The notes beneath the pieces are model-generated. The model was not told where the DNA came from, did no database searches, and saw only the letters and a program-made list of their open reading frames with translations. Positions 2,402-34,744 of a DNA stretch of 62,396 nt are shown here, in pieces (the first letter of the stretch is position 1; each line of letters opens with the position of its first letter). A program made the position numbers and the translations under genes. Source of the DNA: Rubrivivax sp. (GTDB lineage Bacteria > Pseudomonadota > Gammaproteobacteria > Burkholderiales > Burkholderiaceae_C); NCBI GenBank assembly GCA_014859905.1, contig JACZKT010000512.1, positions 1-62,396 on the forward strand, given 5' to 3'.

Positions 2402-3624
2402 ACAACATGCTGACAAACAATATGAAAGTCCTGCTAGTCGATGATGAGTCTTTTGCGTGCAAACTTCTCACGCGTCAACTGGCAAACCTTGGCCTCAATG
2501 ATGTCACTTCCTGCGAGCGTGCAACGGATGCACTGGCCCTGCTGGAATCCGGCGACGGCGTGTTCGGCCTGATATTCTGCGACCTGCAAATGCCAGGGAT
2601 GGATGGCGTTGAATTCGTGCGGCAGTTGGTGCGAATTAAATACGCCGGCGGGCTGGTGCTGGTCAGCGGTGAGGATGGACGCATCCTGCAGACTGCCGAA
2701 AGGCTGTCCAGGGCACATCAGCTTGATGTGCTCGGTGTCTTGCACAAGCCGATTTCTCCAGAGCAACTGCGCCAGGTACTGGCGAACCAATCCCTGCGAG
2801 AAGGCATGTCGTCCCATGCCGCCCGCAAGACATATGCATCCGATGAACTGTGGCGCGCCATCACTGGGGGGATGCTGATCAATTGCTACCAGCCTAAGGT
2901 CGATCTCGCCTCCGGCGTGGTCAGTGGGGTGGAAACCCTGGTGCGCTGGCAGCACCCCCAGGACGGTTTGGTGTTTCCAGATCAGTTCATCGCCACCGCG
3001 GAGGAGCATGGTCACATTGATGAACTGACGCGCGTGGTGCTGGCAAATGCCTTGCGCCAGGCACGCATCTGGTTGGATACCGGATTGTCCCTGCATGTGG
3101 CGGTGAATGTGTCGATGGACAATCTCGATTCCCTGGAGTTTCCAGATTTCGCCGCGCGTGCGGCCGCCAAGGCGGGGGTATCACCATCGTGCCTGGTGTT
3201 GGAGGTGACGGAAAGCCGGTTGATGAAGAACCCTCTCGCATCGCTCGACATACTTGCCCGCCTGCGCCTGAAGCATATCAGCCTGTCTATCGATGATTTT
3301 GGCACCGGGCACTCGTCGCTTTCCCAGCTCCGATATATTCCCTTCGACGAACTGAAGGTGGACCGGAGTTTCGTCCATGGCGCCAGCCGTGACCCGTCTC
3401 TTCGAGCCATACTCGAAGCGAGCCTTGACATGGCGCGAAAGCTGGACATGAAGACGGTGGCAGAGGGCGTTGAAGATCAGGAAGACTGGGATTTCCTGCG
3501 CGCAGCCGGTTGTGACACGGCGCAGGGCTATTTCATCGCCAAGCCCATGCGGGCGGAGGATATTGGCCGCTGGTTCGAAGCCTGGGCAGAACGTCGTCCG
3601 AACCTGATGCAGATGAAGGTATGA
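2398..3624 (+). CDS. Response regulator with C-terminal EAL domain (c-di-GMP phosphodiesterase-like), copy 1
   Basis: REC (LLVDDESFACKLL, FCDLQMPGMDGVEF) plus EAL domain (GVETLVRW, SIDDFGTGHSSL, VAEGVED); ATGA overlap with upstream kinase. Confidence 0.93.
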   Translation: MNNMLTNNMKVLLVDDESFACKLLTRQLANLGLNDVTSCERATDALALLESGDGVFGLIFCDLQMPGMDGVEFVRQLVRIKYAGGLVLVSGEDGRILQTAERLSRAHQLDVLGVLHKPISPEQLRQVLANQSLREGMSSHAARKTYASDELWRAITGGMLINCYQPKVDLASGVVSGVETLVRWQHPQDGLVFPDQFIATAEEHGHIDELTRVVLANALRQARIWLDTGLSLHVAVNVSMDNLDSLEFPDFAARAAAKAGVSPSCLVLEVTESRLMKNPLASLDILARLRLKHISLSIDDFGTGHSSLSQLRYIPFDELKVDRSFVHGASRDPSLRAILEASLDMARKLDMKTVAEGVEDQEDWDFLRAAGCDTAQGYFIAKPMRAEDIGRWFEAWAERRPNLMQMKV

Positions 3625-4906: not shown

Positions 4907-6105
4907 GCTGCGATAGCCATCAATTCGCGGCGACGCGATTCCCAGGCGACTCGCCAGCCCACCAGATCGGCTCCCGGCATCGGCCGCGCGATGAAATACC
5001 CCTGCGCTACATCGCAGCCGTGCGCGCGCAGGTAATCAAGATCGGATTGGTCCTCCACGCCTTCTGCGACCGTCTTCATGCCGAGCTGGCGCGCCATCGC
5101 AAGCGTTGCCTCGATGATGGCGCCGAGCGACGTATCCCCGGCAGCGCCGTGGACGAAGCTTCGATCCAGCTTGAGTTCGTCGAACGGAATGTCGCGCAAT
5201 TGGGCCAACGACGAATGGCCGGTGCCGAAATCGTCGATCGACAGGCTGACCCCCTTCAGGCGCAGCCGCGTCAGCACGTCCAGTGGCGCCCGCACATCCT
5301 TCATCAGGCGGCTCTCCGTCACTTCCAGCACCAGCCTCGACGGCTCGACCCCGATCTCGCTTGCCAACTGCGCGACCGAGTCGGGAAGGTCCAGTGAGGC
5401 CAAATTGTCCATCGAGACGTTTACGGCCACCTGCAGGTCCAGCCCGGCGTCGCGCCATCTGCGTGATTGGCGCAACGCGGCGGCCAGCACGGCGAGCGTC
5501 AGCGCGTCGATGAGGCCGTGGTCCTCGGCCAAGGTGATGAAACGATCCGGGTACACCAGTCCGGCCTGCGGATGGTTCCAGCGCACGAGCGACTCGACGC
5601 CGATCAGCGCGCCGCCGGCCAGTGCCACCTTGGGCTGGTAGTGAATGACGAGTTCGTCACCGGCAATGGCGCGCTCGAGCTCGGCGGGCTCGAATTCGCC
5701 CTGGGCCGCGCGCCAGGGCACGACCTTGCGCGCCGCATGGCTGGCCAGCACTTCGCTCAGCTGCTCGTTCTTGATCGGCTTTTGCAGCATCCCGAGGACG
5801 TGAATCCGGTGCGCGCGTGCGAGTTTGGCCACGGCCTTCAGGATGCGCCCGTCTTCGCCGCTGACAAGCACCAGGCTGCCGCTGTAGCCGATGCCCGCCA
5901 GGTGACGAACGAACTCCACGCCGTCGATGCCCGGCATTTGCAGATCGCAGAATACCAGCCCGATCGCCTCGGACCGGGTCTTCAGCAGCGTCATCGCCTC
6001 CTCGGCGCGCTCGCAATGCAGGACCCCGACGCATCCGACTCGCTCCAATTGCCGAGTCAGCAGCTTGAGCGCCAGAGGATCGTCGTCGATGAGCAGCGTG
6101 TTCAT
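4903..6105 (-). CDS. Response regulator with C-terminal EAL domain, copy 2
   Basis: ORF 4903-6198; start at MNTLLIDDDPLALKLL (6105) chosen by comparison with copy 1; EAL domain GVESLVRW, DDFGTGHSSLAQL; ATGA overlap with downstream RR. Confidence 0.9.
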   Translation of the reverse strand: MNTLLIDDDPLALKLLTRQLERVGCVGVLHCERAEEAMTLLKTRSEAIGLVFCDLQMPGIDGVEFVRHLAGIGYSGSLVLVSGEDGRILKAVAKLARAHRIHVLGMLQKPIKNEQLSEVLASHAARKVVPWRAAQGEFEPAELERAIAGDELVIHYQPKVALAGGALIGVESLVRWNHPQAGLVYPDRFITLAEDHGLIDALTLAVLAAALRQSRRWRDAGLDLQVAVNVSMDNLASLDLPDSVAQLASEIGVEPSRLVLEVTESRLMKDVRAPLDVLTRLRLKGVSLSIDDFGTGHSSLAQLRDIPFDELKLDRSFVHGAAGDTSLGAIIEATLAMARQLGMKTVAEGVEDQSDLDYLRAHGCDVAQGYFIARPMPGADLVGWRVAWESRRRELMAIAA

Positions 6106-24236: not shown

Positions 24237-24686
24237 ATGCCCGCAGACAACGATGATCTCAAGGACTTCTCCCCCGTAGGCTTGCAGACGCGCCGTGAGA
24301 TTGCCGGAGACGAATGGTTCGAGCTCAACATGAAGAACATGACGGAGTGGGACCGATACTGGCAGATCGTTGCGACCAACACCAACTGGCACACGACGTG
24401 GTCCCGCGGCATCATTCCCCGCCAGACACTGAGCCTGGTCAACATGTCAATGCTGGCCGCAATGGGCCACTGGGGCGAGTTCGAGCACCACTTCCGCAAT
24501 GCCCTGCTGCGTACCAAAGTGCCCCTGATCCAGATGCGCGAGATCATGCTGCACATCTCGCAGTACTGCGGCATGGCCACCGGTGGCGAGATTTGGAAGA
24601 TCGCCCGCCGTGTCCTGAAGGAAGAGAACATCGATCTGAGCCAGCTGCCGCCGCTGGACAGTTCGAACATCAACTGGAAGGGTTGA
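24237..24686 (+). CDS. Carboxymuconolactone decarboxylase (CMD) family protein
   Basis: SRGIIPRQTLSLVNMSMLAAMGHWGEFEHHFRNALLRTKVPLIQMREIMLHISQYCGM. Confidence 0.88.
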   Translation: MPADNDDLKDFSPVGLQTRREIAGDEWFELNMKNMTEWDRYWQIVATNTNWHTTWSRGIIPRQTLSLVNMSMLAAMGHWGEFEHHFRNALLRTKVPLIQMREIMLHISQYCGMATGGEIWKIARRVLKEENIDLSQLPPLDSSNINWKG

Positions 24687-24732: not shown

Positions 24733-25450
24733 TCAGCCCCCGTCTGACGGCAGGCATCCCACGGAATCTATAGTGAATGATCTCACCCAGGGACGCGTCG
24801 TAGGCCCGCCCAGCCGACAGATCGGCCGCAGCAACTTCGTGTCGATCTTGCCGTTGCTGTAGAGATCGTCGCGGACGTCGAACTGCAGCACTTCGCCGAC
24901 GAAGAACTCGCTCTCGGTCGATCCGAAGCTCAGCACCTGGCTCTGCCAGCATTCCATGCTGGCAGACACATCGGCCAGCTGCTGCGTGCGTATCGACACG
25001 CCGGATGCGGTCTTCAAGCCGAGCACCTCGACTTCGCTCGCCTCGGGTGGATGGTCCTCGGAACTCAGGTGCAAGTCCTCGAGCAGCGACTCGTCCGCGA
25101 TGTTCACCACGTACTTGCGATAGAGGTTGATGTTGCGCGACGCGTCCTTGCGCCTGCCGGCGCGCAGCCCGCAGTTGAAACCCAACATTGGCAGGAATGG
25201 CGACACGAAGGTGAACGTGCTGAACGGAGCCAGGTTGCTCTTGCCGGCTCGATGCCACTGCTCAGCCAGGCGATGGGCGCGGGACGACGGCAACAGTCAG
25301 CAGTCTGTAGCTGGATTCGTGTGTGAGCGTGGCGGCATCGATTCCCATGAGTTCCTTGTCCTTGTCGATCGGGCCGCGAGGCGTCGCCGAGCACTGATCG
25401 GTGATTGACACCGTGGCACAACATCGAAATAATAAGCTGATATTTGGCAC
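24733..25450 (-). pseudogene. Flavin reductase-like (FMN-binding split barrel) protein, frameshifted paralogue of 32880-33599
   Basis: Homology to the intact copy is split over three frames (ORFs 25262-25450, 25104-25493, 24733-25293). Confidence 0.85.
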
Positions 25451-30631: not shown

Positions 30632-32400
30632 TGAAGCTCGATCGCGCGGCCCAGCCGCCCTCTACCCCGGCGGACTGCGAGTGTGACGTGCTGGTGATCG
30701 GCTCCGGCGTCGGCGGATTGTCGGCGGCGCTGACCGCCGGCCTGCGCGGGCTGCAGACCATCGTCGCGGAGAAGGCCGATGTCTACGGCGGCACGTCCAT
30801 CTGGTCGGGCGGGTGGATCTGGATCCCCTGCAACGACATGGCGCAACGGGACGAGGTCGACGACTCGCTGGACAAGGCTCGCCTGTACCTGCGCGAGCGG
30901 CTGGGCCCGCAATACGACCCGGCGCTGGTTGATGCCTACTTGGAAGCCGGGCCACGCATGCTGCGCGAATACGCGCGTGAAACGCCGGTCCAATTCGAGC
31001 CGGCCGGCTATATCTTTCCCGACTATCACCCGGAAACGCCCGGATCGCTGCATGGCGCCGGGCAGAGCCGTTCCCTGCGGCCCGTCGCCTTCAACGGACG
31101 ACAACTGAGTCGCGACACAGCGCGCAATATGCGACCCATGCTGCGCCAGCTCACGCTGTCCGGCATGCTGATCGGTTCGCTGGTGGAGGCGCAGCACTTC
31201 ATCAATGCTTCACGCTCGCTCACCTCGGCGCGCTACGTCCTGCGCAAGACGCTGCGCTACATCGCCGATCGCATCCGGTACGGCCGAGACATGTCACTCG
31301 TAAACGGCATGGCGCTGATTGCGCGCCATGTGAGCGGCCTCGAGAGGCTGGGCGTCCCGATCTGGGTGGGAGCGCCGGCGGTGGAACTGATCGTCGAAGG
31401 CGGCGAAGTACGAGGCGCGGTGCTCGAGCAACGTGGCAAGCGGATCCACGTGCGCACGAACCGGGGCGTGGTGCTTGCATGTGGCGGCTTCCCGCACGAC
31501 GAACAGCGCAAGAGCAAGTTCTACAGCCACGTTGCCGCCGGCGCACAGCACTACGGCATTGCGCCGCCCACCAACACCGGCGATGGCCTGACTCTGGGCG
31601 AACGCGCGGGGGGCTCGGTGGTGGAGGGGCGACCCTGGAACTGCCTGTTCATGCCCGCTTCGCGCATCCCCGGCACATCGGTCATCCCGGCGGTGTTCCC
31701 GCATATCTGGGACCGCTCCAAACCTGGCTTCATTGCGGTCACCCCCGATGGCAGACGCTTCGTCAACGAGGCGGCGCCGTACATGATGTTCGGCCAGGCA
31801 ATGGTCGATGCGAGCCAGGGCAAGGCAGATGTCCGGGCCTGGCTGATCTGTGATCACGCAGCCATACACCGCTACGGGCTCGGCTTGGCGCGCCCGATGT
31901 TGCCCCTGTGGCCGCACCTTCGGTCGGGATACCTCGTGAGCGGTCCGACCATCGACGACTTGGCGCGGCGCATCGCCGTTCCGGAAGAGACGCTCCGGAC
32001 GACGATTGCCGAGTACAACGAGGATGCGCGTCGCGGCGTCGACACCAAGTTCGGCAAGGGCGCGGATCCCTTCTCTCGCTTCCAGGGAGACCCCGACGTC
32101 AAGCCCAACCCCAACATGGCGCCTCTGGCCCAGGGTCCATACTTCGCGGTCGAGATCTTCTGCGCCGATTTCGGCACCTTCACCGGCCTGCGCACGAATG
32201 CGCATGCGCAGGTGCTCGATCGTGAGACCGGCGAGCCGATACGCGGTCTGTACGCCGCAGGCAACGACATGGCGATGATGATGGGAAGCCACTCGGTCGG
32301 CGGCGGCATCACACTCGGGCCGGCCATGGTGTTCGGGTACATCGCGGCCTGCCATCTGGCTGCCCGTAGCAGCCTCGACGAGGCGGCACACTGCGCGTGA
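30628..32400 (+). CDS. FAD-binding dehydrogenase (3-ketosteroid dehydrogenase/fumarate reductase flavoprotein-like)
   Basis: VIGSGVGGLSAALTAGLRGLQTIVAEKADVYGGTSIWSGGWIWIP; GLRTNAHAQVLDRETGEPIRGLYAAGNDMAMMMGSHSVGGGITLGPAMVFGY. Confidence 0.92.
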   Translation: MMKLDRAAQPPSTPADCECDVLVIGSGVGGLSAALTAGLRGLQTIVAEKADVYGGTSIWSGGWIWIPCNDMAQRDEVDDSLDKARLYLRERLGPQYDPALVDAYLEAGPRMLREYARETPVQFEPAGYIFPDYHPETPGSLHGAGQSRSLRPVAFNGRQLSRDTARNMRPMLRQLTLSGMLIGSLVEAQHFINASRSLTSARYVLRKTLRYIADRIRYGRDMSLVNGMALIARHVSGLERLGVPIWVGAPAVELIVEGGEVRGAVLEQRGKRIHVRTNRGVVLACGGFPHDEQRKSKFYSHVAAGAQHYGIAPPTNTGDGLTLGERAGGSVVEGRPWNCLFMPASRIPGTSVIPAVFPHIWDRSKPGFIAVTPDGRRFVNEAAPYMMFGQAMVDASQGKADVRAWLICDHAAIHRYGLGLARPMLPLWPHLRSGYLVSGPTIDDLARRIAVPEETLRTTIAEYNEDARRGVDTKFGKGADPFSRFQGDPDVKPNPNMAPLAQGPYFAVEIFCADFGTFTGLRTNAHAQVLDRETGEPIRGLYAAGNDMAMMMGSHSVGGGITLGPAMVFGYIAACHLAARSSLDEAAHCA

Positions 32401-32401
32401 T

Positions 32402-32560
32402 TCAGGTGCCTGAGGCCCGTAGGTCGTAGTTCGGCGCGGTAGCGCCCAGGCTTTCTGAGGTGCGCGTCGCTGTGTTCATCACCGGCACGGGCACCGACAA
32501 CCTGCGCTCGGGCGTGAAGCGCTCGGCTGGGCCCGACATCGACACTGCGGCGACAGGCAG
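32402..32560 (-). pseudogene. C-terminal remnant of an IclR-type regulator (paralogue of 33980-34744)
   Basis: Complement translates LPVAAVSMSGPAERFTPERRLSVPVPVMNTATRTSESLGATAPNYDLRASGT*, aligned end to end with the intact IclR C-terminus LPVAALSVSGPAERFTPERMLAMSASVMNTATRISESLGASSPSYGLRAAGA*. Confidence 0.9.
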
Positions 32561-32822
32561 CTGCCGCCCCAGGGCTGTTGCCGGCTGCCAGGAAACGCTG
32601 TTTTCTGGCTGTCAGAAAGCGCGCAGAGACCATGCGTGATTCACGGGTTATCCACCGCGGCGACCGACCATTGCGTATGAGGGGCATCGGTCGCCGCCGT
32701 GGATAACCCTGCATTCCGGCGGCTCGAAGAGCTAATCAGTCAGTTGATGGCGAGTAGCACTTTCCCGCTGAACTGGCAACTGGGCGCAGCCAGAAAAGCG
32801 CGGTTCCTGACCGCCGCTGACA
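32561..32822. repeat. Nested inverted-repeat element (possible MITE or IS-end remnant)
   Basis: Outer arms 32589-32611/32787-32809 (CAGGAAACGCTGTTTTCTGGCTG, about 20/23 match); inner arms 32645-32667/32687-32709 (GGGTTATCCACCGCGGCGACCGA, 22/23) with 19-nt loop. Confidence 0.75.
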
Positions 32823-32850
32823 CAGGGCAGTCTGAACATCAAGTGGAAGG
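32823..32850 (+). pseudogene. 3' tail remnant of the CMD-family gene
   Basis: gcagtctgaacatcaagtggaagggctga encodes SLNIKWKG*, matching the CMD end SSNINWKG* (24660-24686), and directly precedes the second flavin reductase as in the first copy. Confidence 0.7.
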
Positions 32851-32879
32851 GCTGAACGAGCCCGGAGAGGCAGGGCTCG

Positions 32880-33599
32880 TCAGCCCCCTCCCGACGGCAG
32901 GCTGCCCACCGAACGCATGGTGATGATCTCGCCGAGCGACGCATATGTGGGCCCGCCCAGGCGGCAGATCGGGTGCAGCAGCTTGGTGTCGATCTTGCCG
33001 TTCCTGTAGAGATCGTCGCGGACGTGGAACATCAGCACTTCGCCAACGAAGAATTCGCTCCCCGTCGAACCGAAGCTCAGAACTTGGCTCAGCCTGCACT
33101 CCATGCTGATCGGAGCAGCGGCCAGCCGCGGCGTCCGGATCAGGACGCTGGGAGCCGTCTTCAAGCCCAGCAACTCCACTTCGCTCACCTCGGGTGGGTA
33201 GTCCTCAGAACTCAGGTGCAGGGCTTCGAGCAGCGACTCGTCCGCGATATTCACGACATATTCACCGTTCGCATTGATGTTGCGCGACGTGTCCTTGCGC
33301 GTGCTCCCGCGCATCCCGCAGTTGAAGCCCAGCATCGGAGGAAACGGCGACACGAAGGTGAAGGTACTGAAGGGAGCCAGGTTGATCTTGCCGGGCTCGA
33401 TGCCACTGCTGACCCATGCGATGGGGCGAGGGACGACTGCCCCCGTCAACAGTCTGTAGCTCGATTCGTGCGTCAGCGTGGTGGCATCGATTTGCATGAG
33501 TTCGTTTTCCTTGTCGATCGGACGCACACGCGTTCTTGCGAGTCGATCGGTGATTGGCATCTGGTCATGATGGCGGAATGATAGGCCAATATTTGGCAC
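32880..33599 (-). CDS. Flavin reductase-like (FMN-binding split barrel) protein, intact copy; start may be internal (MQIDATTLTHESS)
   Basis: LLTGAVVPRPIAWVSSGIEPGKINLAPFSTFTFVSPFPPMLGFNCG; FFVGEVLMFHVRDDL. Confidence 0.88.
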   Translation of the reverse strand: MPNIGLSFRHHDQMPITDRLARTRVRPIDKENELMQIDATTLTHESSYRLLTGAVVPRPIAWVSSGIEPGKINLAPFSTFTFVSPFPPMLGFNCGMRGSTRKDTSRNINANGEYVVNIADESLLEALHLSSEDYPPEVSEVELLGLKTAPSVLIRTPRLAAAPISMECRLSQVLSFGSTGSEFFVGEVLMFHVRDDLYRNGKIDTKLLHPICRLGGPTYASLGEIITMRSVGSLPSGGG

Positions 33600-33639: not shown

Positions 33640-33960
33640 AAAGTGCGTGCGCGCAGGGCGCGGCGCGGAGTGAGACCGGCGCCGATGACGGCCTGACCCT
33701 GGGTGAGCGCACAGGATCCCGCGCATCTGAGTACAACGAGGACGCGCCCAGCGGCATTCACCGGACTCCGCACGCATGCGCATGCGCAAGTACTAGATCG
33801 CGACACCGGCGAACCAATACGCGGCCCCTACGCCGCTGGCAACGACATCGCAACGATGATGGGAAGCCCTGCGGTCGGCGGAGGAATCATGCTTGGGCCG
33901 GCCATGGTGTTCGGCCAACTTGCTGTCTGCCATCTTGCAGGCCGAGACAACGCCAGCAAG
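33640..33960 (+). pseudogene. Internally deleted remnant of the FAD-binding dehydrogenase
   Basis: Three collinear blocks of 30628-32400 survive: DDGLTLGERTG, SEYNEDA, and FTGLRTHAHAQVLDRDTGEPIRGPYAAGNDIATMMGSPAVGGGIMLGPAMVFGQLAVCHLAG. Confidence 0.9.
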
Positions 33961-33979
33961 GCCACCCGCACCGCTTGCC

Positions 33980-34744
33980 CTACGCACCCGCGGCGCGCAG
34001 GCCGTAGCTCGGCGACGAGGCCCCCAGGCTTTCGGAAATGCGCGTAGCCGTGTTCATGACAGAGGCAGACATCGCCAACATGCGCTCAGGCGTGAACCGC
34101 TCGGCCGGCCCCGACACCGACAGCGCCGCGACGGGCAGAGCCTCAGGCCCCCAAATCGGGGCCGACACGCTGTTCACGCCGGGACGCGAACCGTTGTACG
34201 ACAACGCGAAACCACGCTGCCTCACCTCCGCCAGCTCCTTCCTCAAGGCGGGCAGGTCCTCGATGGGAGTCAAACCTTCTTCGGCAAGCTTGGCGATGAC
34301 ATCGTCGGGCTGATGGGCCAACAGTGATTTTCCCGAGGCGGTTCGCCAGGCTGGAGCGCGCCAGCCGACCCGTGCCGATGCCCGGACGGGGTAGTCACCC
34401 TCCATCTTGTCGATGTACAGCACGTCCGGAAAGTCGAACACCGACAGCAACACCGTTTCATTCAGCTGCAAGAACAGCACCTTCATGTGCGACTGTGCGA
34501 CGCGCCGCACCGGTTGCCGATCCATGACCCGCACTCCAAGCTCCCACAGCTTCAGCGTCAGCGAATAGCGGCCGGTCTCGGGGTGGGAGCGGACGAAGCC
34601 CTGCGCAGCAAGCGTCGAGAGAATACGGAAGGTATTGCTCTTGGTGAAGCCGAGCTGGCGGCTCAACTCGGCAACGCCACGGGGCTCCTCGCTAAGAGAA
34701 AGCGCCTCGATCACCAGCAATGCTTTGACTGTCGTGCTGTCCAT
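33980..34744 (-). CDS. IclR family transcriptional regulator
   Basis: VKALLVIEALSLSEEPRGVAELSRQLGFTKSNTFRILSTLAAQGFVRSHPETGRYSLTLKLWELG. Confidence 0.94.
   Translation of the reverse strand: MDSTTVKALLVIEALSLSEEPRGVAELSRQLGFTKSNTFRILSTLAAQGFVRSHPETGRYSLTLKLWELGVRVMDRQPVRRVAQSHMKVLFLQLNETVLLSVFDFPDVLYIDKMEGDYPVRASARVGWRAPAWRTASGKSLLAHQPDDVIAKLAEEGLTPIEDLPALRKELAEVRQRGFALSYNGSRPGVNSVSAPIWGPEALPVAALSVSGPAERFTPERMLAMSASVMNTATRISESLGASSPSYGLRAAGA

Follow-up and report, generated by a model that had tools for sequence, protein, structure and literature searches.

In filamentous phages and in plasmid strands undergoing transfer, a complementary strand has to be synthesized. Copy-out transposable elements pass through a figure-eight that DNA replication by the host converts to duplex (PMC7780238). 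Eight insertion sequence (IS) families are listed as copy-out/paste-in (PMC9333248), among them IS3, IS21, IS256, IS110, and ISL3. A described way to start synthesis on single-stranded DNA (ssDNA) is the ABC-primosome, for which a hairpin with a DnaA box is sufficient for DnaB loading and priming (PMC6127211); the A-site, attributed there to Masai (1990, 1995, cited in PMC6127211), is a DnaA-box hairpin of this kind on ssDNA. Here, we describe a hairpin that may act in a comparable manner. It lies within a small element at positions 32576–32822 of a 62,396 nt stretch of DNA from Rubrivivax sp. (GCA_014859905.1, contig JACZKT010000512.1; the assembly is 86% complete and consists of 724 contigs), and this whole stretch is called the window below. 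The hairpin very probably represents a family that resides mainly in the Burkholderiaceae. The element is a new example of a known element type, a miniature inverted-repeat transposable element (MITE); the hairpin stands out because element families without relationship to one another have it in common. The features of the element are:

32570–32575, plus strand: target-site duplication CAGGGC, left copy
32576–32822, no strand assigned: non-autonomous element with TG...CA ends, very probably an IS21-type MITE (from its ends, the target-site duplication, and a full-length homologue)
32576–32611, plus strand: left terminal inverted repeat (outer arm), TGTTGCCGGCTGCCAGGAAACGCTGTTTTCTGGCTG, matching IS21-family ends
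32645–32709, minus strand: inner hairpin, member of the shared family, with the minus strand as the conserved (folding) strand (from model R1 and covariation)
32702–32709, minus strand: outermost part of the 5' arm of the conserved strand, GGGTTATC; together with 32699–32706 it holds the DnaA-box-like TTATCCAC
32787–32822, minus strand: right terminal inverted repeat (outer arm), read on the minus strand as TGTCAGCGGCGGTCAGGAACCGCGCTTTTCTGGCTG, matching the ends of IS elements on two contigs of the window genome (C592 and C119)
32823–32828, plus strand: target-site duplication CAGGGC, right copy

The original prediction, made from the sequence of the window, had proposed nested inverted repeats at this locus, and both were found in place. 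The inner arms (32645–32667 and 32687–32709) are 23 nt long and 96% identical, with a 19 nt loop, in agreement with the 22 of 23 matches reported. The outer arms (32582–32611 and 32787–32816) are real as well, but they extend over 30 nt with 83% identity and are thus longer than the 23 nt with about 20 matches that had been described. Folded as RNA, the whole element reaches −126.2 kcal/mol, whereas shuffled sequences average −92.8 (z −7.3, 0 of 200 shuffles), and the inner hairpin by itself has z values of −7.5 to −7.8, so that the folding calculation suggested at the outset yielded a structure beyond chance.

The inner hairpin was compared with its relatives using a covariance model, R1, built from an alignment (A1) of 18 copies and comprising 63 positions and 22 base pairs. 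The window hairpin scored 73.9 bits on the minus strand versus 53.1 bits on the plus strand. In the alignment, nine pairs have changed on both sides (34 cells versus 7.6 expected, 0 of 500 shuffles); together with the folding z-scores, this comparison with shuffled sequences rules out a chance palindrome. Among 55 distinct hairpins, pairs 1 to 11 are formed in nearly all cases, in spite of variants such as GC, AT, or CG at pair 2, GC or CG at pair 3, and GC, AT, or TA at pair 6. Pair 7 is T.G in 45 of the 55, and pair 12 is a conserved G.G mismatch in 53. Altogether, G.T pairs occur 46 times versus a single A.C pair. Because of this imbalance and the covarying pairs, the sequences indicate that the folding form is one of the two strands in a single-stranded state, which applies to RNA and ssDNA alike.

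The two arms are not equally constrained. The 8-mer TTxTCCAC is near-invariant on the 5' arm in the 55 hairpins, which come from unrelated elements, whereas the 3' arm drifts; therefore, the 5' arm is probably recognized by its sequence. The hairpins were gathered with a pattern that favours TTxTCCACGG, so that the near-invariance of this arm is partly due to ascertainment, which does not explain the drift of the partner arm or the covariation of the outer pairs. Compared with a DnaA box, TTRTCCAC fits eight of the nine positions, the ninth base being G, and the boxes around the dnaA gene of the window genome, TTATCCACA and TTGTCCACA, have the same A/G alternation. The original prediction had regarded the DnaA-box-like arm as possibly coincidental; the near-invariance shows that it is constrained, while binding of DnaA is putative.

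To delimit the family, we searched at several taxonomic depths. The pattern GGGTTRYCCACNGCGG..CCGCNGTGGRYAACCC was found at 31 loci among about 85,000 species, in Rubrivivax, Variovorax, Ramlibacter, Ideonella, Aquabacterium, Paraburkholderia, and Burkholderiaceae or Burkholderiales bacteria; the remaining carriers are metagenome-assembled genomes labelled only Proteobacteria or bacterium. Within the genus, model R1 matched 27 of the 81 genomes searched, and within the family 76 of 401 (in 51 of 141 genera), with up to 11 matches per genome, and outside the family only 3 genomes in a class-wide draw of 274. No Rfam 15 family was reached by the window region (best score 25.8 bits, with 62 needed) or matched by 14 related hairpin loci, and a literature search with the hairpin core sequences found no open-licence paper that contains them. 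Apparently, the family has not been described before.

A subterminal hairpin is present in five IS families, namely IS110 (12 loci), IS21 (about 22), IS3 (about 14), IS256 (6), and ISL3 (2). The reference proteins used for assigning these families were a modest set. The IS3 matches at distance 0, in which the hairpin is translated inside the IS3B_061 reference frame, were excluded from the evidence for IS3. With one or two proteins each as negative controls for other IS families, the data are no more than suggestive of an absence of the hairpin from cut-and-paste families. In IS110 the transposase gene (PF01548) is separated from the left end by the hairpin, which is upstream of a TTGAC motif that precedes the transposase. 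In IS21 the hairpin follows istB and is often accompanied, further out, by a smaller second one, and in IS3 and IS256 it is downstream of the transposase. Comparison of identical copies placed the IS end 78 bp outside the hairpin in IS3 and 36 and 37 bp outside it in the IS256 type, whose target duplications include AAGAATG and GCCATCA. One IS3 relative lacks the hairpin. At about 55 loci the transposase gene is located 3' of the conserved strand, that is, this strand is read from the nearer end into the element. This holds for IS110, IS3, IS21, and IS256, whereas the ISL3 copies face outward and thereby rule out a universal inward orientation.

Several of these loci have further features of their own. 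The smaller hairpin of the IS21-family copies (TTGTCCACGCYGGCG...CGCCGGGGTGGGCAA, then GCCGAAGGC), which also scores with R1, was seen at L083, L094, L095, L097, L117, L118, L124, L125, L127, L128, and L165. Two ISL3-type copies (L158 and L159, at about 1,029,900 and 1,042,300 of G041:C2) are inverted relative to each other and about 12 kb apart, each with an outward-facing hairpin near one end. In one genome (G022), three repeats (L160–L162) have a boundary in common, with the hairpin about 43 bp inside it, and are cut off by the ends of their contigs.

Other hairpins are found next to phage and plasmid genes. At two loci the neighbouring gene encodes a filamentous-phage replication protein (Rep; PF23343, 2e-35 and 2e-36) with 42% identity to proteins of the Xanthomonas inoviruses phiLf and Cf1c, and at both the conserved hairpin strand is the coding strand of rep. 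L104 and L196 are filamentous-prophage-like loci with a Rep of the G2P/ORF2 type and the hairpin upstream; at L104, the gene on the other side is reverse-transcriptase-like by eye. One hairpin is located 15 bp from a TrwC/TraI-type relaxase gene, one 23 bp from a Mob_Pre relaxase gene, and one 344 bp from an IS91-like gene. The 1,840 bp plasmid pHW80V1 (L085) carries the hairpin at 908–966, inside an annotated hypothetical gene, and neither of its two genes has a Pfam or PHROG match. By eye, an open reading frame (ORF) close to the L076 hairpin had seemed to encode a Rep, but Pfam, PHROGs, and NCBIfam did not support this.

Copy-out IS families and the elements with an inovirus Rep or a relaxase have a single-stranded phase; some contexts of the hairpin are unassigned. 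Compared with known single-strand initiation (ssi) sites, the hairpin resembles the A-site and other ssi sites in being a hairpin selected on one single strand, with a DnaA-box-like sequence in its stem and carriers that have single-stranded intermediates. It differs in its box (TTRTCCACG, versus TTATCCACA in the A-site), in the conserved G.G mismatch and apical loop, and in residing in insertion sequences; an initiation role here is putative. Since the hairpin is strand-specific and carries TTRTCCAC with the A/G alternation of the dnaA-gene boxes, an A-site-like signal for the initiation of replication on single strands is the favoured, if still tentative, interpretation. The hairpin would act while its strand is ssDNA: it would fold and present the DnaA-box-like TTRTCCAC arm beside the fixed G.G mismatch, the folded form would recruit host helicase and primase, and the single strand (a figure-eight circle, a virion strand, or a transferred strand) would then be copied to duplex. 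In its wider form, held slightly more tentatively, unrelated mobile elements of Burkholderiaceae would share and exchange one hairpin as a portable helicase-loading initiation signal for single-stranded intermediates; its carriers would comprise copy-out IS from five families, prophages of filamentous phages, mobilizable plasmids, and one MITE or more.

Several observations weigh against this interpretation. The ninth base of the DnaA box is A, but it is G in the hairpins. The outward orientation of the ISL3 copies means that a simple fork-direction rule fails, and because orientation is inherited within families, the number of independent cases is small (about five to eight). Some hairpin copies, many of them low-scoring, are near no recognized mobile gene. 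For the MITE, an autonomous parent that carries the hairpin was not found, and only two full copies are known. Finally, the strand bias would fit RNA equally well as ssDNA.

The latter point leads to the main rival explanation, an RNA insulator. Transcripts entering from flanking DNA would form the hairpin and be stopped or silenced, which would protect the element against read-through or antisense transcription; the MITE hairpin would merely be carried along. Fold-back or insulating structures near the ends are known from IS10 and IS50, and the present hairpin is similar in lying near an IS end and in potentially acting on read-through transcripts, but it does not cover a ribosome-binding site and is downstream of the transposase in three families. 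The large excess of G.T over A.C on one strand is as RNA would show, the folding strand of IS110, IS21, IS3, and IS256 runs from the closer IS end into the element, and in IS110 the hairpin is upstream of the TTGAC motif, so that internal transcripts would exclude it. However, in IS3, IS21, and IS256 the hairpin follows the transposase gene in antisense orientation, a place with apparently the least need for insulation; the ISL3 copies face outward, there is no T-tract, and the TTxTCCAC arm is sequence-specific. A rho-independent terminator was rejected for the lack of a T-tract (GTGTTC, GGTGCC, GGGGCG, and similar sequences follow downstream). An insulator would thus account for the strand bias and the inward orientation, but not for the antisense contexts or for hairpins beside phage Rep and relaxase genes, and we consider it unlikely, at clearly lower odds than an initiation signal.

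Less probable still is a small selfish mobile unit, REP-like or similar to a recombination site, that enters transposons by insertion, spreads along with them, and provides no benefit to its carriers. The lack of kinship among the carriers, the IS3 relative without a hairpin, and the multiple matches in single genomes are as expected for such a unit, whereas the repeatedly subterminal location and the consistent orientation within each family are not, and the surroundings of the hairpin showed neither target duplications nor a separate element to which it would belong. Like REP and BIME sequences, the hairpins are short and dispersed, but they are unclustered, lie always or mostly within mobile elements, and lack the GTAG/GGAG tetranucleotide at the foot, where the flanks are mostly GCA...GTGTTC; a REP/BIME identity was therefore rejected. 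Integron attC sites share the strand-specific folding of DNA with a conserved mismatch, but the hairpin arms (GTTRTCC and GGRYAAC) do not fit RYYYAAC and GTTRRRY and no cassette array was seen, so that this assignment was discarded, too. The DnaA-box-like arm would also suit a binding site for a host protein or transposase that regulates transposition rather than initiation, for example, through DnaA bound to duplex DNA and coupling to the cell cycle. The arms covary, with GC, AT, and TA all found at one pair, and therefore must pair, which binding to duplex DNA would not require; we regard this as the least probable of the three explanations.

The element that carries the window hairpin was delimited by its ends. 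The original prediction had described about 260 bp (32561–32822) without coding content; the region is gene-less, but the true limits are 32576–32822 (247 bp). The termini are TGTTGCC...GCTGACA, and outward from the outer arms they read TGTTGCCGGCTGCCAGGAAACG at 32576 and, on the other strand, TGTCAGCGGCGGTCAGGAACCG at 32822. The 6 bp sequence CAGGGC abuts the element at either end, as expected for the target-site duplication that had been recommended for inspection. The recommended search of related genomes (149 were covered) revealed one full-length homologue elsewhere in the genus (G058:C715:2996–3241), with the same limits and 215 of 248 positions identical in a global alignment (87%). It is located at an unrelated site and flanked by a 7 bp target duplication of its own, GGTCCAC, which indicates that this type of element is mobile. 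Thus, the sequence is not single-copy, and the proposal of a MITE or an IS-end relic stood up to a search that could have found no homologue and no conservation of the arms.

The left terminal repeat matches the ends of IS21-family elements in four genomes (G065, G058, G002, and G026). In one of these (G065:C4 519–4262), the matching ends enclose genes for IstA (NF033546, 1e-67) and IstB (NF038214, 2e-65), and this autonomous relative has a 5 bp target duplication, CGCGG. At the right end, a 29–30 bp stretch is 93–97% identical on contigs C592 and C119 of the window genome itself, and the IS with the matching end on C592 encodes an IstA-like protein (Mu-transpos_C_2, rve, HTH). IS21 ends carry two repeats per end (PMC10122671). 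By eye, the left end of the element has an apparent tandem sub-repeat (GGCTGCCAGGAAACGC and GGCTGTCAGAAAGCGC), which is less clear at the right end. The element also shares with IS21-family IS and IS-derived MITEs the TG...CA ends, the CAGGAA motif, a target duplication of 5–7 bp that differs at the second copy, and the absence of a transposase gene. Unlike them, it has only two full copies known, and it contains the hairpin module, which the closest autonomous relative with matching ends (G065:C4) lacks. Because the ends match IS21-family elements and a target duplication and a second copy are present, 32576–32822 is in all likelihood an IS21-type MITE. Its movement may have been effected in trans, by the IstA/IstB proteins that a resident IS21-family element provides and whose ends are matched by those of the MITE. 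Other matches in the 401 family genomes were restricted to element ends, in two other genera; the whole element had no match in plasmids, and exact patterns of its ends and hairpin had none in IMG/VR. Two of the IS21-family elements, L034 (the 3,744 bp G065:C4 element) and L006 (G000:C592), are unusually long; in both, istA is preceded on the left-end side by an additional reading frame rich in Cys, without a Pfam match in the C592 version.

The element is surrounded by local duplications, as originally proposed. The features involved are:

24237–24686, plus strand: intact paralogue (149 aa ORF), whose 3' end represents the uninterrupted site (from the ORF and alignment)
32172–32560, plus strand: duplicated segment, copy of 33752–34138, left neighbour of the element (from window self-comparison)
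32555–32851, plus strand: 3'-end remnant of the duplicated gene (called CMD in the original prediction), split by the element (39 of 48 matches across the joined flanks)
32880–33599, minus strand: duplicated flavin-reductase-like gene (PF01613, 6.8e-21), copy of 24733–25450, right neighbour (from window self-comparison)

The segments 24733–25450 and 32880–33599 are 80% identical, and 32172–32560 and 33752–34138 are 76% identical. A further pair, 2512–3553 and 4974–6015, is inverted; overall, the duplicated pieces of this catabolic-type cluster are 69–80% identical. When the element and one CAGGGC are removed, the flanks form a 48 bp ungapped match (39 of 48) to 24639–24686, the 3' end of the paralogue, an alignment that is broken when the element is present. 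With the end of the IclR-side copy at about 32560 and the start of the gene remnant at about 32555, the element is located 15–20 bp inside the remnant and not, as had been supposed, exactly at the duplication junction. The restored empty site indicates that the element was inserted after the junction had formed, into a remnant already fused to the IclR-side remnant. The additional suggestion that a structured site drove the duplication was prompted by the position of the element within 20 bp of the junction; it is refuted by the pre-insertion site, which shows arrival inside an already formed patchwork, and is hence extremely improbable.

The takeover of the copy-out figure-eight intermediate by host replication is poorly defined, and if five copy-out families have a conserved hairpin of strand-specific nature close to their ends, this would provide a concrete cis-acting site for this step. 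Model R1, with its 63 positions and 22 base pairs, allows anonymous palindromes in these genomes to be annotated. If the proposed role is correct, transposons, phages, and plasmids of these bacteria would trade a replication signal as a module.
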